Virus record (IMG/VR): IMGVR_UViG_3300020385_000080
Coordinates: 1 to 20,463 of that record
DNA length: 20,463 bases
Strand: one strand, 5' to 3'
DNA from: a virus
Part shown: positions 1-8,917 of the stretch, piece by piece
How positions within the stretch are numbered: position 1 is the stretch's first letter
Layout: the number at the start of each line of letters is the position of its first letter
Position numbers and translations under genes: made by a program
Notes under the pieces: model-generated
Told to the model about the DNA's origin: nothing
Databases searched by the model: none
Seen by the model: the letters and a program-made list of their open reading frames with translations, nothing else

Positions 1-27
1 ACAGACGTAGAAGGAGTAGGATTCTAA
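1..27 (+). CDS. C-terminal end of an upstream gene (partial)
   Basis: Frame 1 from the window edge reads TDVEGVGF and then TAA, ending two bases before the gp53 start codon. This tight spacing and the shared strand fit the last eight codons of an upstream structural (probably baseplate or tail) gene in the same operon. Eight residues cannot identify a family. The other two frames either stop early or would overlap deeply into gp53. Confidence 0.5.
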   Translation, partial: TDVEGVGF

Positions 28-28
28 A

Positions 29-721
29 ATGGGATACTTCAGAGAACTATCTAATTTTGAATATATTTCACCTTTATCTGATCGCAATAAAGATAACGAA
101 TATATTCTAGCAAAGAACTTATTCAGAAGAATCAAACTAGTAGATGACTTTCAAAACTCAACTACTAACTTTCAAAAGTATTATATCAAAGATGGTATGA
201 GACCAGATCAAGTTGCACTTGAACTGTATGGTCTTTCAACTCATGATTGGGTGGTTCTTATCTCTGCTGGAATCACTAATGTGAGAAATCAATGGCCATT
301 ATCTGATCGTGATATCTATGATTATGCTCAGGCAAAATATGGTGTTGATGTTAATATGACTCGCTTCTACGAAACTAAAGAAGTAAAAGATAGTAAAGGT
401 AGATTGATTATGCCAAAGGGGCAAATTGTTGATGCATATTTCAAATCACCAAAACCAAAAGTAGATACTGCACCAACATCATCATATGTTCAATTTTGGG
501 ACAGTGGTCTTGATACAATGATAACAAAAACTGATATTACATCTCCAGTTACTAACTTTGAATATGAAACTAGACTAAACGATGAGAAGAGAGGAATATT
601 TGTATTAAGACCGTCTTATCTACAGCAGTTCTTGTCTAACAATAGAACTCTTATGTTATACGGAAGTTCTACACAAACAATAAGTAGAAAACTTAAGAGA
701 GGAGAAAATATTAGACTCTGA
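29..721 (+). CDS. gp53: Baseplate wedge subunit, T4 gp53-like
   Basis: Structural protein of the tail baseplate wedge; in T4, gp53 joins neighbouring wedges around the central hub. The 230-aa product carries the segment typical of this family around residues 50-95 (YYIKDGMRPDQVALELYG, then a DWVVLISAGI stretch and NQWPLS), which is LysM-like in T4. It is somewhat longer than T4 gp53 (about 196 aa), as cyanophage versions tend to be. AGGA at 18-21 lies seven bases before the ATG. It is the only complete + strand gene in the window. Its TGA (719-721) directly abuts the stop of the convergent Mom-like gene. The identification rests on recognising the family motif; no alignment was run. Confidence 0.87.
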   Translation: MGYFRELSNFEYISPLSDRNKDNEYILAKNLFRRIKLVDDFQNSTTNFQKYYIKDGMRPDQVALELYGLSTHDWVVLISAGITNVRNQWPLSDRDIYDYAQAKYGVDVNMTRFYETKEVKDSKGRLIMPKGQIVDAYFKSPKPKVDTAPTSSYVQFWDSGLDTMITKTDITSPVTNFEYETRLNDEKRGIFVLRPSYLQQFLSNNRTLMLYGSSTQTISRKLKRGENIRL

Positions 722-1309
722 TCACCACAATAGATCTAGTTTCTTATCAAAGATCATAACGTATCGATGTTTACGAGATCTATCTTTCCACTCACCCTCG
801 GATCCTCTGACACTTCCTCTGGAGTGTTTAGTTCCGTCTGCAAAGTAGAAATCTTTTTTTGGTTCTGATAGACCGCAATACCGAAAGTTACAAGCACGAT
901 AAATTGTGCCAGAATGATGGTCACTATCAGCGTATGAGATAATCCCCCTAACGCTGGTCTCTTTTCTAAGGCGTCTAATCGCTTTTGATACGAACCAAGA
1001 AGTGATATTATACTCGTTTTGCTGAGTAGACGGGTGGATGCAGAGTCGTGATAGTTCAAAAAGTCCATCTTGTTCATGACGTTGTAATCCAAAAGCACCT
1101 TGTGCAATTTCAGGAACAGGAAGACCTGTAAAAATACAGATTCCCTGAATACCACCAATGTTTAGTGGACAAAAATCATTGTTTTTGTATAGACCATAAT
1201 TATAACCAGACTTAAAGGTTTTGGAAACATCCTTCAAATAATGAAACCGCAGAAGTAACTCTGCGGCTTCGGATTTGGTTACACGTTCTATAGTGTAATC
1301 AGTCTTCAC
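722..1309 (-). CDS. Mom-like DNA base-modification protein (GNAT-fold family)
   Basis: A 195-aa protein resembling the Mom family of phage Mu, a GNAT-like fold that adds a carbamoylmethyl group to adenine N6 and protects phage DNA from restriction. Visible blocks are GGIQGICIFTG (about residues 51-61), then ELSRLCIHPS followed by TSWFVSKAIRRLRK, then GIISYADSDHHSGTIYRACNFRYCG. The last two are the most diagnostic of Mom-like proteins. The start is GTG at 1309, sharing GTGA with the gp32 stop, so translation is probably coupled to gp32. The chemical product cannot be deduced; a generic acyltransferase is the main alternative. A different-frame ORF with a hydrophobic segment overlaps it (see findings). 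Confidence 0.78.
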   Translation of the reverse strand: MKTDYTIERVTKSEAAELLLRFHYLKDVSKTFKSGYNYGLYKNNDFCPLNIGGIQGICIFTGLPVPEIAQGAFGLQRHEQDGLFELSRLCIHPSTQQNEYNITSWFVSKAIRRLRKETSVRGIISYADSDHHSGTIYRACNFRYCGLSEPKKDFYFADGTKHSRGSVRGSEGEWKDRSRKHRYVMIFDKKLDLLW

Positions 1310-2232
1310 TCTTCGGCAAGTTTAGCGAAGTATGAGAGAGCATCATCATCTTCATCAGAAGAACTGGAAGTAACAATGTCCTCTGCATTGAAGTCGCCAG
1401 GTGTAGAAGTTACCTGAGGGGCAGGACCACGGTTAGAAGCACGGAAATCTTCCTCTGCCTCAACAGTTTCCTGATCTTGGAAACGAGGGGTGCCCTTGTT
1501 GCCCAGAACATAATCAAGACGCTTCTTCAGTGCATCATAGTCCTTAAACTGATCGGCAGCAGTGAACTCAGCGAGAGAGTTCTCTTTCTTCCAGATTGCT
1601 TCCATTGCGTCATCGTCATCCAAGAGTGCGCCTTGTGCAGCAAACTCAGAAGAATCGTAGTTACGATAACCTGCAACGTTCTTTGCCTTCAGTTTGAAGT
1701 TGGCACCCTGCCAGAAGTCGAACGGATCGATTGCTTCCTCGTCCTCAAACTCAGGTTGCATTGCAGCAGTCAGTTTGTCAAAGATCTTCTTACCATACTT
1801 GTAGAGCATCACTCTACCCTCGTTCTGAGGATTGGTAGGATCCTTCACAACATAGATGTTGCTGATATAGGTGAGTTTACGCTTCTGCTTACGTGCAGCA
1901 TCTTTACCTGCATCTGTGCCATTGTTCCACAGCAGAGAATTGTACTCAGACACGGGATCTTTCTGTCCCAGACTAGTCAGAGAGTTCTCAATGTACCAAC
2001 CACCAGGACCTTGGAAGGCGTGGGAGTAGAGTTTCACGAATGGCAGATCTTCGCCATCGGGAGCAGGCAGGAAACGGATAACGGCATAACCATTGCCACT
2101 CTTATCACATTCCAGTTTCCAGAGACGGTCATCACCAGAACCGCCAGTATTATTCATTTTTTCAACTTCCTTAACCAGTTTTTGGGTAAGGGATCCCAAT
2201 TTAGATTGCTTCTTAAGGTCAGCAAAAGACAT
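1306..2232 (-). CDS. gp32: Single-stranded DNA-binding protein, T4 gp32-like
   Basis: Coats single-stranded DNA during replication, recombination and repair and recruits gp59 and other replisome proteins. The 308-aa sequence follows T4 gp32 closely: a basic N-terminus with Lys/Leu-rich LGSLTQKLVKEVEK (cooperativity region), an OB-fold core with GYAVIRFLPAP, FVKLYSHAF, GGWYIEN, YISNIYVVKDP and GRVMLYKYGKKIFDKL, and an acidic C-tail ending DEDDDALSYFAKLAEE (protein-interaction tail). The three zinc-binding cysteines of T4 gp32 are absent: the matching region reads IENSLTSLGQKDPVSEYN. GAGG precedes the ATG by about seven bases. A sigma70-type promoter and a repeat-bearing leader lie directly upstream. 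The downstream Mom-like gene overlaps the stop codon. Confidence 0.95.
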   Translation of the reverse strand: MSFADLKKQSKLGSLTQKLVKEVEKMNNTGGSGDDRLWKLECDKSGNGYAVIRFLPAPDGEDLPFVKLYSHAFQGPGGWYIENSLTSLGQKDPVSEYNSLLWNNGTDAGKDAARKQKRKLTYISNIYVVKDPTNPQNEGRVMLYKYGKKIFDKLTAAMQPEFEDEEAIDPFDFWQGANFKLKAKNVAGYRNYDSSEFAAQGALLDDDDAMEAIWKKENSLAEFTAADQFKDYDALKKRLDYVLGNKGTPRFQDQETVEAEEDFRASNRGPAPQVTSTPGDFNAEDIVTSSSSDEDDDALSYFAKLAEE

Positions 2233-2270
2233 TTAGATTTCCTCGGATTTTTTGGATTTGGGGGATTTAC
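2233..2270 (-). promoter_or_regulatory. gp32 leader with a 9-nt tandem repeat (possible autoregulatory site)
   Basis: Between the predicted transcription start and the gp32 ATG the mRNA is A-rich. It contains AAATCC three times (+ strand GGATTT at 2245-2250, 2254-2259, 2263-2268), exactly nine bases apart, with a fourth partial GGAT at 2273-2276. The ribosome-binding GAGG lies just downstream. T4 gp32 represses its own translation by binding an unstructured leader; this leader has little self-complementarity, so a similar role is plausible but inferred. Confidence 0.4.
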
Positions 2271-2276
2271 TTGGAT

Positions 2277-2305
2277 AGTATAGCGAAGTTTTGCTCAGGT
2301 GTCAA
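2277..2305 (-). promoter_or_regulatory. Sigma70-type promoter for gp32
   Basis: On the - strand, TTGACA (2305-2300), a 17-base spacer and TATACT (2282-2277) form a near-consensus promoter. The -35 box lies inside the last codons of the DUF1825-like gene. Transcription should start near 2270, giving a leader of about 38 nt. It would give gp32 and the Mom-like gene extra transcripts beyond read-through from the operon. Confidence 0.7.
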
Positions 2306-2627
2306 TATAGTCCTTGAGCGATTCAATGGTTTTATTCATACTATCGAACAGTAGATTAAGATCGGTTTCAGGGGGAAACCCCATCATAGCAACCGACTTA
2401 CGTAGGTTCTCTTTCATCTCAACCGCTTTGGGGTCGTCCGAAAGAGATAACCTAGTATACATCACTCTCTGCTTTTCTAGCAACGTTGCTAGTTTTTCAA
2501 CTTTATCTATCCTTGCATCGCGGTCCATAGAACTGAAGGCAAGGAGAGATCCATAGATCTCTTCCTGGAGTGTATTAATCTCCTTCAACTCTTCTTGTAT
2601 GATTTCGGAATCGAAAAAATTACTCAT
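2295..2627 (-). CDS. DUF1825-like protein (cyanobacterial family)
   Basis: A 110-aa, probably all-helical protein of unknown function. The N-terminus FFDSEIIQEELKEI, the middle LEKQRVMYTRLSLSDDP and the C-terminal MGFPPE with LFDSMNKTIESLK follow the pattern of DUF1825, a short family found mainly in cyanobacteria and their phages. It lies between gp59 and gp32, overlapping the gp59 end by eight bases. That suggests co-expression with replication proteins, but no role is known. No strong Shine-Dalgarno is visible, so coupling to gp59 translation is likely. The family call is from memory of the sequence pattern. Confidence 0.72.
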   Translation of the reverse strand: MSNFFDSEIIQEELKEINTLQEEIYGSLLAFSSMDRDARIDKVEKLATLLEKQRVMYTRLSLSDDPKAVEMKENLRKSVAMMGFPPETDLNLLFDSMNKTIESLKDYIDT

Positions 2628-3219
2628 GAACTATTGACCGTAATACTCTTTTATATTGGAATACATCAATATTTATGAAGGGATTATATTTTTTAATTTT
2701 AAGACTCACAGTTTCCCACACAGGATCATCCAATCTCTTATCCATAATAGATACGAAATCAAAGATCTTATTAAAGATTACCAGAGTTTCTAGACTAGTC
2801 CTTCCACCAAGATATCTTTTTAGAATTACTGGATGCCCTTTGGAACAACTGAAGAGTTCTTCTAATTTTCTCTCCGAGAGTAATTCGTTGCTTTGTTCTT
2901 TGAACAAGTAACTCAAACTCTGCTGTCGTTTCATCCACTCGGCGTATGTTCTTTCTCCAGAATTGATAATTTCTCCAATCCATAAGTTCTGTGGGTTGTC
3001 GGTGGAAACAAAATTTGCTAGTAGAAAATCTACTACTTCCTTATTAGAATATTTTCTAGAGGTTTTTTCAAACCAATACTTATCTTTCCTCTTATTAAAT
3101 GAGGATACAGTAGCGCGAGATTTTCCCCCATACTTAAAAAAGTCATATTTACGATTAGTAAAATGACTCTTCATAGAAAGATATGTTTGGTAGGTCTCAT
3201 ATGGTGTCACTTTCAGCAT
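2620..3219 (-). CDS. gp59: Helicase loader, T4 gp59-like
   Basis: Loads the gp41-type replicative helicase onto gp32-coated forks. The product (199 aa from the chosen start) matches T4 gp59 along its length: YETYQTYLSMKSHFTNRKYDFFKYGG at the N-terminus (T4 has VYKLYLMIKQH..KYDVIKYN), then KRKDKYWFEKTSRKYSNKE, LWIGEI, and a C-terminal half with DDPVWETVSLKIKKYNPFINID. The ATG at 3219 is preferred over the in-frame TTG at 3249, because it matches the length of T4 gp59 before the first conserved helix and overlaps the preceding gene by only 23 bases. It overlaps the next gene (DUF1825-like) by eight bases. Confidence 0.92.
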   Translation of the reverse strand: MLKVTPYETYQTYLSMKSHFTNRKYDFFKYGGKSRATVSSFNKRKDKYWFEKTSRKYSNKEVVDFLLANFVSTDNPQNLWIGEIINSGERTYAEWMKRQQSLSYLFKEQSNELLSERKLEELFSCSKGHPVILKRYLGGRTSLETLVIFNKIFDFVSIMDKRLDDPVWETVSLKIKKYNPFINIDVFQYKRVLRSIVHE

Positions 3220-3397
3220 CTGCAAGATCAATTTTTTCAATACAATCAACGGTCACACTATGTTGACCAACACGATACCAATGGTGTATTACACCACAAA
3301 TATCAGGTTTTTCTCCAAGATACTCTAGATTATCGCTTTCATTTTCACGCAACCATGCTTGTAGGCGATGGTGCATTAATTCATCGCGAGAAATCAT
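3197..3397 (-). CDS. Conserved small protein of unknown function (66 aa)
   Basis: Starts at ATG 3397 in an ATGA overlap with the gp33 stop and ends inside the start of gp59. This placement in a tightly coupled gene chain is the main support. The sequence begins MISRDELMHHRLQAWLREN and contains PDICGVIHHWYRVGQHSV in the middle, ending with an acidic tail. There is no membrane segment and no recognised motif. A longer reading from GTG 3454 exists but would run through the gp33 coding region, so the ATG is preferred. A role linked to replication or late transcription is only suggested by position. Confidence 0.68.
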   Translation of the reverse strand: MISRDELMHHRLQAWLRENESDNLEYLGEKPDICGVIHHWYRVGQHSVTVDCIEKIDLADAESDTI

Positions 3398-3654
3398 AGA
3401 GGTAATTTTGCTCTTGAAGTTTTCTTCATAAAGTTGAGACGAATAGCATCCCACTTGAGACGTTCTTTCAAAGATTTTGAAACAAGTTTCGTTACCGATT
3501 CTACCTCAAGTTCGTTTATTTCACAATAGTGAACAATAGCATCAATATAATTAAATTTCTCTTCAGCAACAATTTTTTCAATCTCAAGAGCAAATTTTGA
3601 AGGTGTTAAAAATTTATTCTCGATTACCTTTTCTAGTTCCTTATTTGGTTCCAT
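3394..3654 (-). CDS. gp33: Late-transcription coactivator, T4 gp33-like
   Basis: In T4, gp33 bridges the RNA polymerase beta-flap and the gp45 sliding clamp and so couples late transcription to replication. The 86-aa product has the family core FALEIEKIVAEEKFNYIDAI followed by VHYCEINELEVESVTKLVS, comparable to T4 FIIEKMVEEFGMSYLEAT plus its following helix. The start is ATG 3654, preceded by GGAG at five bases; the reading from 3759 would lie inside the nuclease gene and has no such site. It overlaps the nuclease gene by 14 bases and the next gene by four. The C-terminus (RAKLPL) is basic and lacks an obvious clamp-binding tail like T4 LDFLL. Confidence 0.83.
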   Translation of the reverse strand: MEPNKELEKVIENKFLTPSKFALEIEKIVAEEKFNYIDAIVHYCEINELEVESVTKLVSKSLKERLKWDAIRLNFMKKTSRAKLPL

Positions 3655-4321
3655 AGAGCTCCAGTTTATCTGTAACAAACTTTCTAATGTATTCGGTGAG
3701 AAGTTTGATGTACTTTGATTTGTCTCTTTCTTCGTAGACGACGCATTCTCCATTTTCACAAGCCATGATGATTACAAATTTTTTAACTGGAATACCAGTC
3801 ATTTCATACAGCATACAACCATATGCTGCACATTGGACAAAATAGTTTTCGATCCAATTTCTTGGTTTCGGTTTTTTAGAAGTCTTAAAGTCAATTATTG
3901 CTAATTCACCCTCGTATTCTGCAATACAATCGACGGTTCCAGCAATACCTAACTGCTTACTATATAGGGAAGTTTCCAGAGCATGAATATTATCAATATT
4001 ATTTAAAGTTCCCTTAGAAATCTTAAATAAAAAATCAGAAATAGGACGAACTTTTGGAAGTTTTTCATTCTTGAGATGATACTCTACAAGAGTATGCATA
4101 TCCGTGCCACGACCAGTTGCAGCCTTTGTGACACGATTTGCCTCTTCATCACCAACCTTCTTACGCCACTTAACAAAGATTTCTTTATTATAATGACTAG
4201 TCACCGAAGTAATAGAAACTAGTTTTAAGAGTTCTTTTTCATCGGGAACAGAATAGTATCTGACTCCATCAATAGTCTCCCTCTCAAGTTGAGGGAGACT
4301 CAAATCAACATGATTAAACAT
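3641..4321 (-). CDS. PD-(D/E)XK exonuclease (RecB/MGME1-like)
   Basis: A 226-aa nuclease of the RecB-like PD-(D/E)XK superfamily, which cuts single- or double-stranded DNA ends with Mg2+. Motifs seen in order: GRGTDMHTLVEYHL (about residues 70-83), a Glu in HALETSLYS (E116), GTVDCIAEY with the catalytic Asp (D131), LAIIDFKTSKKPK with D144 and K146, and YFVQCAAYGCML (Q163, Y167). This set is typical of the MGME1-like exonucleases carried by T4-like cyanophages. The ATG shares one base with the PhoH stop (TAATG). Its place between phoH and gp33 suggests a role in host-DNA breakdown or recombination during replication; the substrate is unknown. Confidence 0.85.
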   Translation of the reverse strand: MFNHVDLSLPQLERETIDGVRYYSVPDEKELLKLVSITSVTSHYNKEIFVKWRKKVGDEEANRVTKAATGRGTDMHTLVEYHLKNEKLPKVRPISDFLFKISKGTLNNIDNIHALETSLYSKQLGIAGTVDCIAEYEGELAIIDFKTSKKPKPRNWIENYFVQCAAYGCMLYEMTGIPVKKFVIIMACENGECVVYEERDKSKYIKLLTEYIRKFVTDKLELYGTK

Positions 4322-5076
4322 TAAAAACCTGCATCTATTTTTGCAACTAGATATTCTTTACATAGACCAGAACGAACAATATCATCAAGACCAAACTCAA
4401 TAATATCAAACGATGGCATTGCTCTAAGAATTCTCATAAAATCGATAATACCGTTTCTTTCGTTAGTTTTTTGCAAATCAGATTGAGTTGCATCACCACA
4501 GAAACAAATACGGGTATTCTCGCCAACTCTTGTAATTATACTATCAAGTTCATGAAAATTCAAGTTTTGAAATTCATCAACTATCACAATAGCATTATCA
4601 AGAGTTGTTCCACGGAGAAATGACGTGGACCAGAACTTAATTGTTTCCTGTGCTTTCAGATTACCATACAGCATCTCAAAATCGGAATCACTAGGCATCT
4701 GGAACATGTATTTAACCATGTTCTTATAAGGAATCTGATAGATATCAGACTTATCTTCATAAGTTCCAGGAAGGAATCCAATCTCTCTAGTAGAGACAAG
4801 AGAGCGAACCAGATAAATTCTCTCGTAAGGAGTATTATCGTTTAAAACATCTTGAAGAGCCTTATACAGAGCAATGAATGTTTTACCTGTCCCAGCACAA
4901 CCATAACCAATAAGATGTTTCCCCTCTGCATACGAATCAAAGAATCTTTTTTGATTATCTGTTAATGGATCAATATCAACCAATAAATCTGTATTGATTG
5001 GTTTTTTTCTTCTCATTTGCTTGGCAGTCATGCCAATTCCAATAGGGGAGTCGTTCTTTCTCTTTCTAGTTGGCAT
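4321..5076 (-). CDS. phoH: PhoH-like P-loop ATPase
   Basis: A 251-aa ATPase with Walker A GCAGTGKT (residues 59-66), Walker B IVIVDEFQN (163-171) and the sensor-like GDATQSDL (194-201), the arrangement of the PhoH family. LVRSLVSTREIGFLPG (about 89-104) is another hallmark. PhoH genes are widespread in marine phages; the bacterial family is phosphate-regulated and has been linked to RNA metabolism, but the phage function is not established. Only a weak Shine-Dalgarno is visible (AAGTAACTT before the ATG). It starts seven bases after the end of the 82-aa protein and ends overlapping the nuclease start, so it belongs to the same operon. Confidence 0.92.
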   Translation of the reverse strand: MPTRKRKNDSPIGIGMTAKQMRRKKPINTDLLVDIDPLTDNQKRFFDSYAEGKHLIGYGCAGTGKTFIALYKALQDVLNDNTPYERIYLVRSLVSTREIGFLPGTYEDKSDIYQIPYKNMVKYMFQMPSDSDFEMLYGNLKAQETIKFWSTSFLRGTTLDNAIVIVDEFQNLNFHELDSIITRVGENTRICFCGDATQSDLQKTNERNGIIDFMRILRAMPSFDIIEFGLDDIVRSGLCKEYLVAKIDAGF

Positions 5077-5083
5077 AAGTTAC

Positions 5084-5332
5084 TTAGATCTTTTTGACAG
5101 TTGAACCAGGTGCTTTTGATGCCTTAGCAAGCACATCATTCCATCCAGGATTTTTATTGACGAGTTTATCTCGCCACTCTCCAACCTCTCCAGGTTGAGG
5201 ACAAGTTGATGGATCTGACCAATCTCTTTTCCAAGTAGGATTGTCATCACACCACTGAGGCCAGTCATGAACACTGAGTTTTACTTCTTTTTGTTCGCCG
5301 GTCTCTTTATTGACTACAGGATAGGTTGCCAT
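5084..5332 (-). CDS. Conserved cyanophage protein of unknown function (82 aa)
   Basis: Begins MATYPVVNKETGEQKEVKLS and continues with a Trp-rich stretch (HDWPQWCDDNPTWKRDWSDP) and PGEVGEWRDKLVNKNPGW, a pattern I recall as common between thyX and phoH in T4-like cyanophages. The N-terminus resembles that of FmdB-like zinc-ribbon proteins, but the paired CXXC cysteines are absent, so a metal-binding role is not supported. ATG 5332 is chosen over the longer reading from 5365, which would overlap thyX. No Shine-Dalgarno is seen; the 23-base gap to thyX is AT-rich and contains CTAAATA, which resembles a T4-type late -10 element. Confidence 0.78.
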   Translation of the reverse strand: MATYPVVNKETGEQKEVKLSVHDWPQWCDDNPTWKRDWSDPSTCPQPGEVGEWRDKLVNKNPGWNDVLAKASKAPGSTVKKI

Positions 5333-5355
5333 AATTATGAATGATATATTTTTAT

Positions 5356-5991
5356 TTAGACCCACCCAAGTGCTTCAGCACAGGTTGGGAATTGTTCCAA
5401 GAATACTTTCTTACAACCTTCTGCAAGATCCATATGCTCTTTCTGAGTACCATTAGCAGTCCTCAGATTTATGTAATGAATCCACGAACGACAAGAACCG
5501 GACATATAGATTTTGGTGGGCGTTGCTAAAGGAAGCACAAAACGAGCACATTCTTTTGCAATACCAGCATCAAGCATCTCTTGATAAAGTTTCATTCCTT
5601 CGTCAAAATGTTTTTGCATTTTGATCTGGAACTCTTGACGGACAAACGGGTCAATATCATCAATAGAATTCTGACGATTCTTGGTGTCTTGTCTGCGTAG
5701 TTCAGGTAGAGGGATCGTCTCCGCGAGTAAGGAAGAATCAGCATAGCGTTGTGAAAATTCTTGATATGTGAATGAACGATGTCGAAGCACTTGAGCTGCT
5801 ACACCCCTGGTAGTTTCAAGTTCCAGAGTCATAAATGCCTGCTCAAACACAGACCAATGATTGTGTTTGATACAGTAACCCAACAGTTTTGCATAGTTGG
5901 GATTTTCCTGATTGTTTGGATTTGACACACGCGCAACGTATGCCATCATCTTCTCCGCATCGGGAGTGACGCTAATTAGTTTTACACTCAT
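5356..5991 (-). CDS. thyX: Flavin-dependent thymidylate synthase ThyX
   Basis: Converts dUMP to dTMP using FAD, NADPH and methylenetetrahydrofolate, supplying thymidylate for phage DNA synthesis. The 211-aa length is normal. The ThyX signature is present at residues 70-82 as RHRSFTYQEFSQR (usual form RHRxxSxxxxSxR, here with Thr in place of the first Ser, as in many cyanobacterial/cyanophage forms). Other conserved stretches are NHWSVFEQAFMTLELETTR and the C-terminal ARFVLPLATPTKIYMSGSCRSW with HYINLRTANGTQKEH. The ATG overlaps the TGA of the 59-aa gene (ATGA), indicating coupling. It is the best-defined metabolic gene in the window. Confidence 0.97.
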   Translation of the reverse strand: MSVKLISVTPDAEKMMAYVARVSNPNNQENPNYAKLLGYCIKHNHWSVFEQAFMTLELETTRGVAAQVLRHRSFTYQEFSQRYADSSLLAETIPLPELRRQDTKNRQNSIDDIDPFVRQEFQIKMQKHFDEGMKLYQEMLDAGIAKECARFVLPLATPTKIYMSGSCRSWIHYINLRTANGTQKEHMDLAEGCKKVFLEQFPTCAEALGWV

Positions 5992-6167
5992 TCTTCGTTC
6001 AAATCACTGTCTTCAAAGACTTCATCATAGTCATGGAGATACCTCGCAACTTCATCGTATTTCACTTCCTGGGTATATGCGTCTACATCAGAATAAACTT
6101 CTGCTTTGAGTCCATCTACTAAAAGTTCTAGATTGCGGACGATGAGTTTGAGTCTTTCTTTGTCCAT
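5988..6167 (-). CDS. Small acidic protein of unknown function (59 aa)
   Basis: Begins MDKERLKLIVRNLELLVDGL and ends with a very acidic tail (YDEVFEDSDLNEE). ATG 6167 has AAAGGA about nine bases upstream; an in-frame ATG at 6188 would put this site inside the coding region and lies next to the predicted -10 box, so 6167 is preferred. It is the first gene of the thyX-phoH-gp33-gp59-gp32 operon and overlaps thyX by four bases. It has no membrane segment or known domain. Confidence 0.74.
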   Translation of the reverse strand: MDKERLKLIVRNLELLVDGLKAEVYSDVDAYTQEVKYDEVARYLHDYDEVFEDSDLNEE

Positions 6168-6188
6168 GATGAAATGTCCTTTCACCAT

Positions 6189-6197
6189 ATTATAGCA
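6189..6197 (-). promoter_or_regulatory. Extended -10 promoter for the thyX operon
   Basis: The - strand reads TGCTATAAT (TATAAT at 6194-6189, preceded by TGn), a full extended -10 element. No -35 match exists at the right distance, which extended -10 promoters do not need. It lies immediately behind the terminator of the preceding gene, and transcription would start near 6182, just before the AAAGGA site of the 59-aa gene. Confidence 0.6.
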
Positions 6198-6198
6198 T

Positions 6199-6221
6199 AA
6201 AAAAGGAGGGCATATGCCCCC
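6199..6221 (-). terminator. Rho-independent terminator after the 57-aa gene
   Basis: On the - strand a GGGC-ATAT-GCCC stem-loop with flanking G/C bases is followed by TCC and six T residues (+ strand A run 6199-6204). The stem is short but GC-rich. It starts about ten bases after the stop codon of the 57-aa gene and separates it from the thyX operon promoter. Confidence 0.7.
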
Positions 6222-6230
6222 GATTTTAAA

Positions 6231-6404
6231 TTAATTTGCTAATAGAATTTTACAAATTCTTTTACATGTTCCTTGGTCTTCTTCGCATTCAATTAAACAG
6301 TCAAAGTAGTCATTTACCAAATCCAATTCTTCATTAGATTTAGAAAGTGCATTTTCGATATGCACCCATTCTGCTAATTGATTACGGGAAATGCGATTAT
6401 GCAT
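6231..6404 (-). CDS. Small protein with a twin CX3C motif (57 aa)
   Basis: Begins MHNRISRNQLAEWVHIENAL and ends with two CX3C pairs, C36/C40 and C47/C51, separated by six residues (CLIEC..CKRIC). ATG 6404 follows GGAGGT with a four-base spacer, the strongest Shine-Dalgarno in the window. Upstream in-frame ATGs at 6416 and 6431 would bury that site. It is a monocistronic gene with its own putative promoter and a terminator. The paired cysteines suggest metal binding or a disulfide-pinned helical hairpin, but no function is known. I recall similar short proteins in other cyanophages. Confidence 0.74.
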   Translation of the reverse strand: MHNRISRNQLAEWVHIENALSKSNEELDLVNDYFDCLIECEEDQGTCKRICKILLAN

Positions 6405-6463
6405 TTTCACCTCCATAGATTTTGATACCATAAGAAGGAATTACTTCATAGGCTAGCCTTAAT

Positions 6464-6492
6464 TCTATACTATGTAGTCTACTTTGTGTTAA
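6464..6492 (-). promoter_or_regulatory. Putative promoter of the 57-aa gene
   Basis: TTAACA (6492-6487), a 17-base spacer and TATAGA (6469-6464) on the - strand give a fair sigma70-type match. A 10-base palindrome AGGCTAGCCT (6450-6459) lies just downstream near the expected transcription start, and TGTTAATTCA is repeated at 6487-6496 and 6505-6514. These could be operator elements, but this is inference. Confidence 0.42.
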
Positions 6493-6526
6493 TTCACTAA
6501 CATTTGTTAATTCATTACGTAAAGAC

Positions 6527-6554
6527 AAAAAAAGAGAGGGTTTGTAACCCTCTC
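6527..6554 (-). terminator. Rho-independent terminator after the DUF4278-like gene
   Basis: The - strand has a perfect GAGAGGG / CCCTCTC stem (seven pairs) with a seven-base loop, followed by seven T residues. It lies about 20 bases after the stop codon of the 55-aa gene. This is the clearest terminator in the window. Confidence 0.87.
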
Positions 6555-6573
6555 CGTAATGTAAGTTAATGAA

Positions 6574-6741
6574 TCACTTAGTATAAGTACGACCACGATA
6601 GCAGAATGTACCGTGCGACTCTTTATTTTCTACACAACGTGTATCATACTCAACACCACGATATGAGGTGTGAAGAATTTGTGCGTTATGCAGTGCAGAT
6701 GCCTTGTTGATCTGCTTTTTTACCATTTGAAGGGTGTTCAT
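6574..6741 (-). CDS. DUF4278-like small protein (55 aa)
   Basis: A short gene reading MNTLQMVKKQINKASALH at the start and ending with two YRG motifs: TSYRGVEYD (about residues 25-33) and FCYRGRTYTK (46-55). The repeated YRGxxY pattern with a short Cys-containing linker (C36, C47) is that of DUF4278, a small family of cyanobacteria and cyanophages with no known function. AGGAG lies seven bases before ATG 6741. A strong terminator follows. The upstream 40-base gap carries a stem-loop that reaches the Shine-Dalgarno. Confidence 0.74.
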   Translation of the reverse strand: MNTLQMVKKQINKASALHNAQILHTSYRGVEYDTRCVENKESHGTFCYRGRTYTK

Positions 6742-6751
6742 TGTCAGTCTC

Positions 6752-6785
6752 CTGAAGTTAGGGTTTTTAATCCCCGTTCCTTCAG
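6752..6785 (-). promoter_or_regulatory. Intergenic stem-loop reaching the DUF4278 ribosome-binding site
   Basis: On the - strand, CTGAAG and CTTCAG (six pairs) enclose a GGG/CCC inner stem, spanning the stop of the 54-aa gene and running into the CTTCAGGAG that holds the next gene's Shine-Dalgarno. It has no T-run, so it is not a standard terminator. Possible roles are RNA processing or translational control. Confidence 0.4.
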
Positions 6786-6946
6786 TCGTGTGCGTCCCAT
6801 GGATAACATTCAGGGGTTGATTCCTTCATGACCTCAATCAATTCCACCTTATATTCGGTAGGAATATTCTCATTTGCTCTCATCCGAATCATAATTGAAT
6901 CGGCTTGAGCACATGAGAGTGACGTATAGAATAATAGTTCTAACAT
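6782..6946 (-). CDS. Small protein of unknown function (54 aa)
   Basis: Begins MLELLFYTSLSCAQADSIMI and ends ESTPECYPWDAHD, a pattern that I recall as a recurring cyanophage small protein. The frame is open to ATG 7027 (81 aa), but a consensus promoter (-35 at 7038-7033, -10 at 7015-7010) places the transcript start near 7002, downstream of that ATG, so the internal ATG 6946 is the likely start. GGAG lies about 11 bases upstream of it. The extra 27 codons would be rich in Ser, Lys and Arg and cover two hairpins, which also fits non-coding leader. It is probably co-transcribed with the DUF4278-like gene. Confidence 0.66.
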   Translation of the reverse strand: MLELLFYTSLSCAQADSIMIRMRANENIPTEYKVELIEVMKESTPECYPWDAHD

Positions 6947-6947
6947 G

Positions 6948-7002
6948 GGATGAACGACTCCGTTCCGCGACTTACTTGCGTCCGATTTCTCGGATGAACG
7001 AC
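6948..7002 (-). promoter_or_regulatory. Structured 5' leader of the 54-aa gene
   Basis: The predicted leader (about 55 nt) contains the hairpin TCCGA-GAAA-TCGGA (five pairs, GNRA-type tetraloop) and has the 11-base direct repeat GTCGTTCATCC near each end (+ strand 6948-6958 and 6992-7002). The second copy sits directly before the ATG. This may be a translation-control element; no known riboswitch class was recognised. Confidence 0.42.
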
Positions 7003-7009
7003 AGGTCTT

Positions 7010-7038
7010 ATTATAGACCTCATACATTATTTAGTCAA
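7010..7038 (-). promoter_or_regulatory. Strong sigma70-type promoter
   Basis: TTGACT (7038-7033), a 17-base spacer and a perfect TATAAT (7015-7010) on the - strand. The -35 is one arm of an inverted repeat TAGTCAA/TTGACTA (7032-7038 and 7053-7059), and the -10 lies in the loop of a perfect hairpin sequence AGGTCT/AGACCT. It should drive the 54-aa and DUF4278-like genes and is a likely host-recognised early promoter. Confidence 0.72.
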
Positions 7039-7119
7039 GTGCCTTGATATTATTGACTACTATAAAAAAACTTTATGGAGTGAAAATTTTGCCGGAGTTT
7101 TTTACGCCAATATATGGAA

Positions 7120-7326
7120 TTAAAGGTCGGTTTTCATTTCGGTTCCTTCAATCACCTCTTCAACACCTTCAACTAGTTTTTTAATGATTTCTTCATTACC
7201 ATCTAGTTTTTTAATCTCGAACAAAGAAGATTTCATATACTTTTTTAGTTTTTTATATTTTTTCACCACCTTCTGCATTTCATCAGGATCGATGTTTACA
7301 TTTAAGGGAACTGATTCTTCACTCAT
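7120..7326 (-). CDS. Small charged helical protein of unknown function (68 aa)
   Basis: Lys/Glu-rich and probably helical or coiled coil: the stretch DEMQKVVKKYKKLKKYMKSS is followed by KLDGNEEIIKKLVEGVEEVI. It has no cysteines or membrane segment. The ATG overlaps the stop of the 84-aa gene (ATGA), so it is the last gene of the glutaredoxin-DUF6433 run. About 80 bases without a gene or clear terminator follow, before the next promoter. Confidence 0.68.
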   Translation of the reverse strand: MSEESVPLNVNIDPDEMQKVVKKYKKLKKYMKSSLFEIKKLDGNEEIIKKLVEGVEEVIEGTEMKTDL

Positions 7327-7577
7327 CGTTTTTTACTTTCTTTTTTTGGTTTAATACCCCATAGTTTAGGATTTACTCTTCCTTCAGATTGGGTCATGTT
7401 AACAAAATCATGTTGATAATTGTCCCAGTAATGATCAAATATATCTACCTTCTTAGGAGCAGTAACAATATCAAACTTAGTTATCCCATCTTGTAAATAC
7501 TCGACGAGATATGCAGTATATGGAAGACTACGATCTTCTCCTAATTTGGGATCACAGTCTGAATGAAGAATTTTCAT
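7323..7577 (-). CDS. Conserved cyanophage protein of unknown function (84 aa)
   Basis: Begins MKILHSDCDPKLGEDRSLPY and continues with TAYLVEYLQDG and KKVDIFDHYWDNY, which I recall as a recurring small cyanophage protein. It ends with a basic tail (KPKKESKKR). ATG 7577 follows the DUF6433 stop by one base (TAA T ATG); the longer reading from 7592 would overlap that gene. Coupled to the 68-aa gene downstream. No catalytic motif is evident. Confidence 0.74.
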   Translation of the reverse strand: MKILHSDCDPKLGEDRSLPYTAYLVEYLQDGITKFDIVTAPKKVDIFDHYWDNYQHDFVNMTQSEGRVNPKLWGIKPKKESKKR

Positions 7578-7578
7578 A

Positions 7579-8142
7579 TTAAGCGCGTCCACCCCACTTA
7601 ATATCAGGATATGCTTGACTCACAATTTCTTTAGTAATTTTATATTTGGTCTCAAGTTGTTTATCCTTAACAAGACAAACAATCTCTGCTTCCAGGGGAT
7701 GCAAACCCTGAAGAAGGTTGATAAACATCGTTTCTCTACGAATAGAACTCAACGAATCATTACCACCACGAATGAAATTGTAGAACTTGTCATACTCTTT
7801 ACGGATAGATGAACGTCCTTGATCCTGAGATCCAAGAGAGTTTGATCCAAGTTCATTCATCATTCCAACAGCATCATTGATTTTCTCACTGACGTTTCCG
7901 CTGAAAGAATTTTGTTCTCCAACGCTGGCATAAGGAACTTCACCTGGAGGGAGAACAGATACAAGACTCTCATCAAAATTCCAAATGAGTAATGATTTAA
8001 GCGATGCGTGTTCGTATTTTTTAAGAACTTCGACTTTTTTTGCTTTTGATCTTTGCTTTGAGGCAAGTTGAAAAACCTCAAATGCAAAGGGATTAACTGC
8101 CAATTCAGTAGTAGCAGTTGATTTAGATTTTACTGTGGGCAT
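7579..8142 (-). CDS. DUF6433 family protein
   Basis: A 187-aa soluble protein of a family known from T4-like cyanophages and without assigned function. Recognisable stretches are NPFAFEVFQLASKQRSKAKK (about residues 17-36), LLIWNFDESLVSVLPPGEVPYASV, SIRKEYDKFYNFIRGGNDSLSSIRRE and the C-terminal LHPLEAEIVCLVKDKQLETKY with YPDIKWG. The C-terminal half is helical and charged. No strong Shine-Dalgarno precedes ATG 8142. It lies 31 bases after the membrane protein and one base before the 84-aa gene. The name is from recall of the family pattern. Confidence 0.8.
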   Translation of the reverse strand: MPTVKSKSTATTELAVNPFAFEVFQLASKQRSKAKKVEVLKKYEHASLKSLLIWNFDESLVSVLPPGEVPYASVGEQNSFSGNVSEKINDAVGMMNELGSNSLGSQDQGRSSIRKEYDKFYNFIRGGNDSLSSIRRETMFINLLQGLHPLEAEIVCLVKDKQLETKYKITKEIVSQAYPDIKWGGRA

Positions 8143-8173
8143 AACTTAGAATGAATAAAAATTTTATTAGAGA

Positions 8174-8401
8174 TCAATCCTCTTCTTCTTCAGATTCGTC
8201 TGTAAAGAAACCTTCTTCAAAACGGAGAGCGAGAACTTCGTCGGGAACAACATTACCATGCTCATCAAAGAATTCTGGGTGCAGTCTGGGAGCATCTTGG
8301 TAATTCATAAGATATTCGCGGGCAACCCAACCACCAATAATACCCACTACTAAAAACAGAAAAGTTAAAAATGAACCGAAAACTAAACTTACTGCTAACA
8401 T
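8174..8401 (-). CDS. Single-pass membrane protein (75 aa)
   Basis: An N-terminal hydrophobic helix (VSLVFGSFLTFLFLVVGIIGG, about residues 4-24) is followed by VAREYLMNYQDAPRLHPEFFDEHGN and an acidic C-tail (DESEEEED). The layout suggests an inner-membrane protein with a soluble C-terminal part; the orientation is not certain. GGAG lies about eight bases before ATG 8401. It sits in a run of small genes behind glutaredoxin. I recall similar proteins in other cyanophages, without known function. A holin is possible but not supported: there is one helix and no lysis genes nearby. Confidence 0.74.
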   Translation of the reverse strand: MLAVSLVFGSFLTFLFLVVGIIGGWVAREYLMNYQDAPRLHPEFFDEHGNVVPDEVLALRFEEGFFTDESEEEED

Positions 8402-8418
8402 TGTTCTACTCCGAGAAA

Positions 8419-8640
8419 CTACTTAATTTTCTTTGTCCAAAAAGAAAATTCAAAATAGATGTTTACTTCTCGATTAAAAAAGCAAACCATCTTATTTAAA
8501 ACTATCTGAAATGGTTTTGGTTGCTTCTTTTTCCCCCCATTGAGAATAAATTCAATACCACGATTGAGGTGGTCCTTGGTTTTATTTATGTCTTCTTCAG
8601 ACGATTTGTTGTTCTTTAAGGAATCTGATTGTGTCAACAC
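8419..8640 (-). CDS. Small basic protein of unknown function (73 aa)
   Basis: An ORF starting at GTG 8640 (or TTG 8637) and overlapping the glutaredoxin end by 44 bases; AGGAGG lies three to six bases upstream, but it also encodes Leu-Gly-Gly of glutaredoxin, so its value as a start signal is limited. No ATG is available before the conserved-looking part (HLNRGIEFILNGGKKKQPKP, then NKMVCFFNREVNIYFEFSFW). The Phe/Trp-rich C-terminus could associate with membrane. It fills what would otherwise be a 195-base gap in the operon, which supports a real gene; the exact start is uncertain. Confidence 0.55.
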   Translation of the reverse strand: MLTQSDSLKNNKSSEEDINKTKDHLNRGIEFILNGGKKKQPKPFQIVLNKMVCFFNREVNIYFEFSFWTKKIK

Positions 8641-8833
8641 ATCCTCCTAACTTTCGATCATCACAGAGCACTTGTGGGAATGTAGAACCCTTACCAAATT
8701 TATCATAAAACTCCTCACCTGTAAACTCCCTGCCGAGTTTATACTCAACAAATTGTTTTCCAGTCATTTCTAGCACCTGCATTATCTTATAACAATACGG
8801 GCATTCATTTTTTGAATAAACTAAAAATTTCAT
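8597..8833 (-). CDS. Glutaredoxin
   Basis: A 78-aa thiol oxidoreductase that uses glutathione, probably to reduce ribonucleotide reductase and so support phage dNTP supply. The active site CPYC is at residues 11-14, the cis-Pro motif TFPQV at 51-55, and the glutathione-contact GGCVD at 63-67, all in the usual glutaredoxin order and spacing. The start ATG 8833 has no clear Shine-Dalgarno (AT-rich TAACTATTTTTT before it). It is the first gene of its run; a candidate promoter lies in the upstream 200-base gap. Confidence 0.94.
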   Translation of the reverse strand: MKFLVYSKNECPYCYKIMQVLEMTGKQFVEYKLGREFTGEEFYDKFGKGSTFPQVLCDDRKLGGCVDTIRFLKEQQIV

Positions 8834-8855
8834 AAAAAATAGTTAGATAATATAC

Positions 8856-8884
8856 ACCTTACAATATAAACTCTAATTTGTCAA
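8856..8884 (-). promoter_or_regulatory. Putative promoter of glutaredoxin
   Basis: TTGACA (8884-8879) on the - strand has a consensus -35, but the hexamer 17 bases downstream is TAAGGT, a weak -10. Better AT-rich boxes (TATATT at 8868-8863 and 8854-8849) have poor spacing (10 and 24 bases). The position upstream of glutaredoxin makes a promoter likely; the exact -10 is uncertain. Confidence 0.4.
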
Positions 8885-8888
8885 GGAG

Positions 8889-8917
8889 TTGACAGAGTGT
8901 ATGAATCTAAGTAGAAT
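8889..8917 (+). promoter_or_regulatory. Sigma70-type promoter pointing rightward, antisense to the fibre genes
   Basis: TTGACA (8889-8894), a 17-base spacer and TAGAAT (8912-8917) on the + strand form a near-consensus promoter. Its -35 is back to back with the glutaredoxin-side TTGACA, with only GGAG between them (perfect inverted repeat 8879-8894). No + strand gene follows, so it would make an antisense RNA into the 3' end of the fibre block or be a chance match. Confidence 0.45.

Follow-up and report, generated by a model that had tools for sequence, protein, structure and literature searches.

A Mom-family gene with a conserved terminator-like hairpin in its first codons behind gp32 of T4-like cyanophages

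Introduction

The stretch of DNA analysed here, referred to as the window, is a virus record of 20,463 bases (IMGVR_UViG_3300020385_000080) in which a gene for a protein of 195 residues begins inside the stop of gp32. The locus raises the questions of what this protein does, and how its gene is reached by the RNA polymerase when there is no room left for the usual terminator of gp32. According to the original prediction the gene is a Mom-like DNA-modification gene of a cyanophage, coupled to gp32 so that its dose follows that of gp32. Loci and contigs compared with the window are labelled with L-numbers (e.g. L078, L410).

Results

The reading frame for the 195-aa protein, mom, is real and lies at 722..1309 on the minus strand; its product is by homology a DNA-modification enzyme of the Mom family (GNAT fold). 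As proposed, mom is situated directly behind gp32, the gene for the single-strand DNA binding protein (1306..2232, minus strand; PHROG_224, E=4.8e-123; Pfam gp32, E=6.5e-43), and its GTG start is inside the gp32 stop, with GTGA common to the two genes. The baseplate wedge gene gp53 (29..721, plus strand; PHROG_232, E=2.8e-60) is convergent to mom, and the two stops abut with a spacer of 0, which leaves no room for a terminator after mom. The left part of the window encodes, on the minus strand, ThyX thymidylate synthase, a PhoH-like protein, an exonuclease, gp59, DUF1825, gp32, and Mom. A sigma70-like promoter candidate, TTGACA-17-TATACT, was found upstream of gp32 (2277..2305, minus strand) by a consensus scan only, in which promoter-like matches overall were barely more common than by chance. 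At 6957-7002 on the minus strand there is also a sub-threshold match to the Glutamine riboswitch RF01739 (26.1 bits, the gathering score being 35; E=0.001 for a search of 281 bases), where the Glutamine-II match is weak as well.

The phage is a cyanophage, as had been predicted, and is T4-like. Of the annotated gp32 proteins, the window's is closest to those of P-SSM5 and P-SSM2, phages of Prochlorococcus (81.8%), and of the Synechococcus phage S-SKS1 (80.1%), and a sibling contig of 236 kb, with a gene order identical to that of the window, carries two Photo_RC (photosystem reaction-centre) genes. Because the nearest gp32 proteins are from cyanophages and the sibling contig has reaction-centre genes, the host is very probably a picocyanobacterium.

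The assignment to the Mom family held in profile searches, where Pfam Mom (PF25680; E=1.3e-24, 87.4 bits with a cut-off of 27.1) and PHROG_1384 (E=1.8e-33) were the clear best families. The PF25680 alignment covers residues 5-190 of the protein and positions 2-188 of the 202 in the profile. A general GNAT acetyltransferase was rejected, since no general GNAT family in Pfam was matched and Mom was far better; a search of NCBIfam with the window's Mom gave no match. Against solved structures, the best phmmer match was Mu Mom (8bv8, E=0.0015), to which the identity is 23%. In an alignment of 17 sequences, 14 positions are invariant from the window's Mom to Mu Mom, including H23, Y24, E85, L86, R88, S125, D128, G134, Y137, A139, N141, and G146, and the two blocks that the original prediction had quoted as Mom-type are conserved blocks of the family. 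Mu S124, the need for which is known here only from the title of 8bv8, "inactive mutant S124A", aligns to S104 of the window's Mom, and this position is Ser in 15 of the 17 sequences and Thr in the other two. An AlphaFold model made from 24 sequences (mean pLDDT 70.5, with a low C-terminal third) had 8bv8_B as its best fold match (E=3.1e-6, TM ~0.57), with the other listed GNAT structures ranking lower. The comparison with Mu Mom thus came out as the prediction had it, and no unrelated acetyltransferase lacking the Mom residues was found instead, but the model confidence is only moderate and the fold match is therefore supporting and not decisive. The median dN/dS of mom, from a simple Nei-Gojobori count on 110 distinct coding sequences, is ~0.095, lower than that of gp32 (0.137) and gp53 (0.32), so that mom is the more constrained gene. 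A chance match to the Mom family is excluded by these sequence comparisons.

Scans of IMG/VR gave 166 mom relatives with one query and at least 527 with another. In the first 80 relatives, gp32 was found upstream and gp53 downstream wherever the contig reaches, with the exception of L078. Among 74 scorable junctions selected by gp32, mom is present in 16 and missing from 58, a share of 22% that is not a frequency in nature because the junctions were picked by their likeness to the window's gp32. The slot between gp32 and gp53 is without mom in P-SSM2, S-SKS1, and S-8S56, and among the annotated phage records searched there was no match to the window's Mom at 60% or above and none of the gp32-slot type. 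Hence mom is a facultative cassette in the gp32-gp53 slot of T4-like cyanophages. The GTGA overlap is common and not universal, being found in 50 of the 76 scored junctions of the first locus set, and most of the remaining junctions in that set have a gap of 61-245 nt with small ORFs.

The gap between gp32 and mom is an insertion hotspot. In L002, L003, L007, L015, and L068 there are ~245 bases between the genes, with an 80-aa membrane-like ORF (PHROG_8909), and some of its carriers otherwise nearly match the window. An HNH endonuclease (L078:111-509), a similar ORF in L129, an apparent GIY-YIG endonuclease (L330), and a further ORF (L345) were also observed.

A terminator-like hairpin was found by the terminator scan inside mom itself, at codons 14-22 (1243..1270, minus strand), with the sequence GAAGCCGCAGAGTTACTTCTGCGGTTTC followed by the imperfect U-tract ATTATTTG. 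It was the first-listed terminator-like site of positions 1..8900. The U-tract has 4-5 U of 8, which means that termination may be weak. No known RNA family in Rfam matches the hairpin. A second strong RNA hairpin, CAGGGAATCTGTATTTTTACAGGTCTTCCTG, was revealed by RNA folding at codons 55-65 (1117..1147, minus strand); it lacks a U-tract and has a mean z of -3.7 against synonymous shuffles of 15 sequences.

An RNA-level constraint acts on the hairpin at codons 14-22. In 73 dereplicated mom sequences the synonymous diversity of these codons was 0.05 of that expected. The median for the gene is 0.64 (sd 0.16), outside the hairpin no window is lower than 0.35, and the minimum in gp32, DUF1825, and gp53 is not under 0.24 of expected. 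Rows L296 and L308 were left out of the alignments due to internal stops, and gp59, with 2 sequences only, was not usable as a control. For 67 of the 73 sequences the hairpin exceeded every one of the 200 synonymous shuffles in stability (median z -4.7), each of its 12 stem pairs is formed in 60 to 73 of them, and it is part of the minimum free energy fold of the 198-nt context in all 106 junctions of the embedded type. The shuffles and the diversity profile together rule out a chance hairpin arising from the coding of AAELLLR. Two-sided changes are few since the stem hardly varies, but in L149 both partners of the pair C45-G62 are substituted and still pair, and the same holds for two pairs in L129, a basal member of the clade. 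The embedded type arose once on the mom tree (clade support 94/85). The constraint statistics are therefore those of a single long-lived lineage and not of repeated inventions, and shared ancestry explains part of the sameness of the hairpin.

A comparison of 138 distinct gp32-mom junctions showed that embedded and intergenic terminators alternate between clades. The embedded hairpin is present in 106; 96 junctions have it as the only one, 10 have it together with a weak intergenic stem, 31 have an intergenic terminator only, and L129 was unscored, having a visible bulged terminator that is outside the scoring. Thus, in the window's clade (106 junctions) the intergenic terminator is absent or weak, whereas the sister clade (31 junctions, mom 72-78% identical) has a canonical terminator between gp32 and mom and no embedded hairpin. 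L129 has kept its hairpin despite an intergenic terminator ahead of mom. Most mom-less junctions have a canonical terminator within a few tens of bases after gp32, and at this place the terminators of both the sister clade and these junctions end in T5-T8. Of 1554 control coding windows, 3.2% gave a detector call, all of them scoring below 26, while the embedded hairpins have a median score of 29. The motif TGnTATAAT was observed in the gap of 24 of 31 intergenic-type junctions, as compared to 1 of 57 mom-less and 0 of 106 embedded-type junctions. In the sister-clade loci L122, L142, L154, L161, and L321-L399, mom is found directly behind TGnTATAAT and a terminator stem-loop, in a PeSL-like arrangement, with an ATG right after the T-run and no obvious Shine-Dalgarno sequence.

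Some contigs have lost most of mom, and these deletion scars serve as natural experiments. In L410 an in-frame internal deletion has joined mom codons 1-24 to the last codons with the hairpin intact, and the TTTCAT after the hairpin now reads TTTTTTT. A more decayed mom, with the hairpin as in L410, is shared by L101 and six other contigs that are nearly identical to one another; in L410 and L101 the U-tract has improved after the loss of mom coding. A separate scar with an extended stem is present in L115, a contig of 231 kb that has no other mom. In L078 the order is gp32, a 5' fragment of mom with the hairpin and T7, the HNH ORF, and a complete mom, in which its own hairpin is broken. Judging from the scars and L078, it is the position behind gp32 that preserves the hairpin, and not a need of the Mom protein.

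Discussion

The window's Mom is similar to that of phage Mu (8bv8; PF25680) over nearly the full length, with the GNAT fold and the residues H23-Y24, E85-L86-x-R88, S125, D128, G134, Y137, A139, and N141 in common, and with S104 at the position of Mu S124. The gene most likely encodes an enzyme that would add an acyl-type group to adenines of the phage DNA and in this way shield the DNA from nucleases; we infer modification and protection from the homology, and an anti-restriction role would follow from what the family does. The cassette is probably protective. The two systems differ in setting and control: the window's mom is found in a lytic T4-like cyanophage behind gp32, whereas Mu mom has a C-dependent late promoter, and where Mu uses Com and a translation-inhibitor stem, the window's mom has an apparent embedded terminator. 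A com zinc-finger gene overlapping mom, as in Mu, was not found, it is gp32 itself that overlaps the window's mom. The small gp32-mom ORFs of other loci were rejected as Com-like partners, they code for membrane-like peptides with no CxxC motifs.

Lytic-phage homologues in PHROG_1384 are found in Listeria LP-114, Enterococcus RioGrande, Salmonella SP-031, Roseobacter CRP-212, and Synechococcus S-SSM7, with 27-53% identity to the window's Mom and CRP-212 the closest, and several have replication genes as neighbours, which in RioGrande and SP-031 is the gene for DNA polymerase. A second, separate cyanophage Mom lineage of the S-SSM7 type was observed in L085:4947-5570 and L253-L311; in S-SSM7 mom is placed beside a tRNA cluster and psbA, and in one relative, L401, the matched frame is interrupted by a TAG. 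Coupling to replication genes was seen again in the phage-like contig L319, classed with a gammaproteobacterial MAG, in which the mom homologue at 4001-4615 overlaps a DnaB/gp41-like helicase gene at its stop. The "Hef-like homing endonuclease" of Campylobacter phage CP30A (L100:418-2037) has a C-terminal Mom-like domain (PHROG_1384, E=3e-11).

Owing to the conserved hairpin in codons 14-22, the original prediction is not supported in its statement that the dose of mom follows gp32, and a read-through model replaces that part of it. In the window's clade mom leaves no room for the usual gp32 terminator, and codons 14-25 of mom probably encode one. It is likely that the embedded hairpin is the terminator of gp32, that some transcripts end there, and that mom is reached mainly by read-through, termination and its level being predicted from the sequence. 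An RNA polymerase leaving gp32 would meet a moderate terminator ~40 nt past the gp32 stop, where a fraction of the transcripts would end as gp32 mRNA while the remainder would read through into mom. The level of read-through would be set by the imperfect U-tract UUUCAUUAUUU, which the coding of the invariant His23-Tyr24 limits and keeps imperfect. Ribosomes re-initiating at the overlapping GTG could perhaps melt the hairpin and raise the read-through, but this is speculation.

It is conceivable that gp32 and mom simply share one transcript and are coupled in translation, and that the hairpin stabilises the 3' end of the gp32 mRNA or is an RNase processing signal, with no polymerase stop. The GTGA overlap and the imperfect U-tract are in line with this, and stable hairpins can protect RNA 3' ends. 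However, the canonical T5-T8 terminators at the same place in the sister clade and in most mom-less junctions, and the U-tract that became T7 once mom coding was lost, make this explanation unlikely. The hairpin could also be a DNA-level target of recombination or homing for exchange of the mom cassette, its sameness being the result of frequent exchange. HNH, GIY-YIG-like, and small ORFs are indeed inserted around the site (L078, L129, L330), and according to work cited in PMC4503421 the shuffling of cassettes in T4-like phages takes place through promoter-terminator motifs. A mere DNA site would not account for two-sided changes that keep the pairing in L149 and L129, for scar tails that change toward better termination, or for a hairpin orientation that follows the gp32 strand, and we regard it as very unlikely.

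We give the least credence to the idea that the Mom-fold GNAT modifies RNA or protein and not DNA, for instance as a host-takeover acetyltransferase. Enzymes with a GNAT fold acetylate a variety of substrates, the model's next matches by fold are general GNATs, and the identity to Mu Mom is low, but the profile searches favoured the Mom families and no general GNAT family, and the Mom invariants, including D128 and Y137, are kept together with S104.

There is a precedent for a 5'-embedded terminator in T4 mobE and segF, and the mobE terminator stops ~30% of the transcripts (PMC2988022). The window's mom has, like these, a GC-rich stem, a short loop, and a U-rich though imperfect tail inside its first codons, and in both cases the gene is a mobile cassette in a T4-like genome with a weak terminator, predicted in the case of mom. 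In contrast, mobE and segF are homing endonucleases of coliphages, and mom is a cyanophage DNA-modification gene with the hairpin retained in deletion scars. The case has been made that an inserted gene is retained more readily if control elements lie within it (PMC2988022), and the scars fit this argument. Another known arrangement is PeSL, the promoter-terminator cassettes of T4-like phages (Comeau et al. 2014, as cited in PMC4503421), which the sister clade resembles in having TGnTATAAT directly before the stem-loop ahead of mom. The window's clade differs, its stem-loop is inside the reading frame and it has no promoter motif, and a PeSL-type early promoter before the stem-loop was therefore rejected there.

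The read-through model may also suggest, tentatively, that the hairpin acts as an attenuator and links DNA modification to replication, in that ribosomes finishing gp32 would re-initiate at the mom GTG and melt the hairpin, with mom made only during translation of gp32, although we find this doubtful. A deletion would then have to spare the hairpin, which would protect the cassette from loss. Autorepression of gp32 is established for T4 and RB69 (PMC535899). If the attenuator is real and the cyanophage gp32, when in excess, represses its own translation like that of T4, modification would be turned on with the demand for single-strand binding protein.

With at least 527 relatives in one IMG/VR scan, mom appears to be a widespread and largely unsampled DNA-modification cassette in environmental cyanophages. 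It would also show how an accessory gene can follow an essential replication gene without loss of the terminator, by having the terminator written into the accessory codons.
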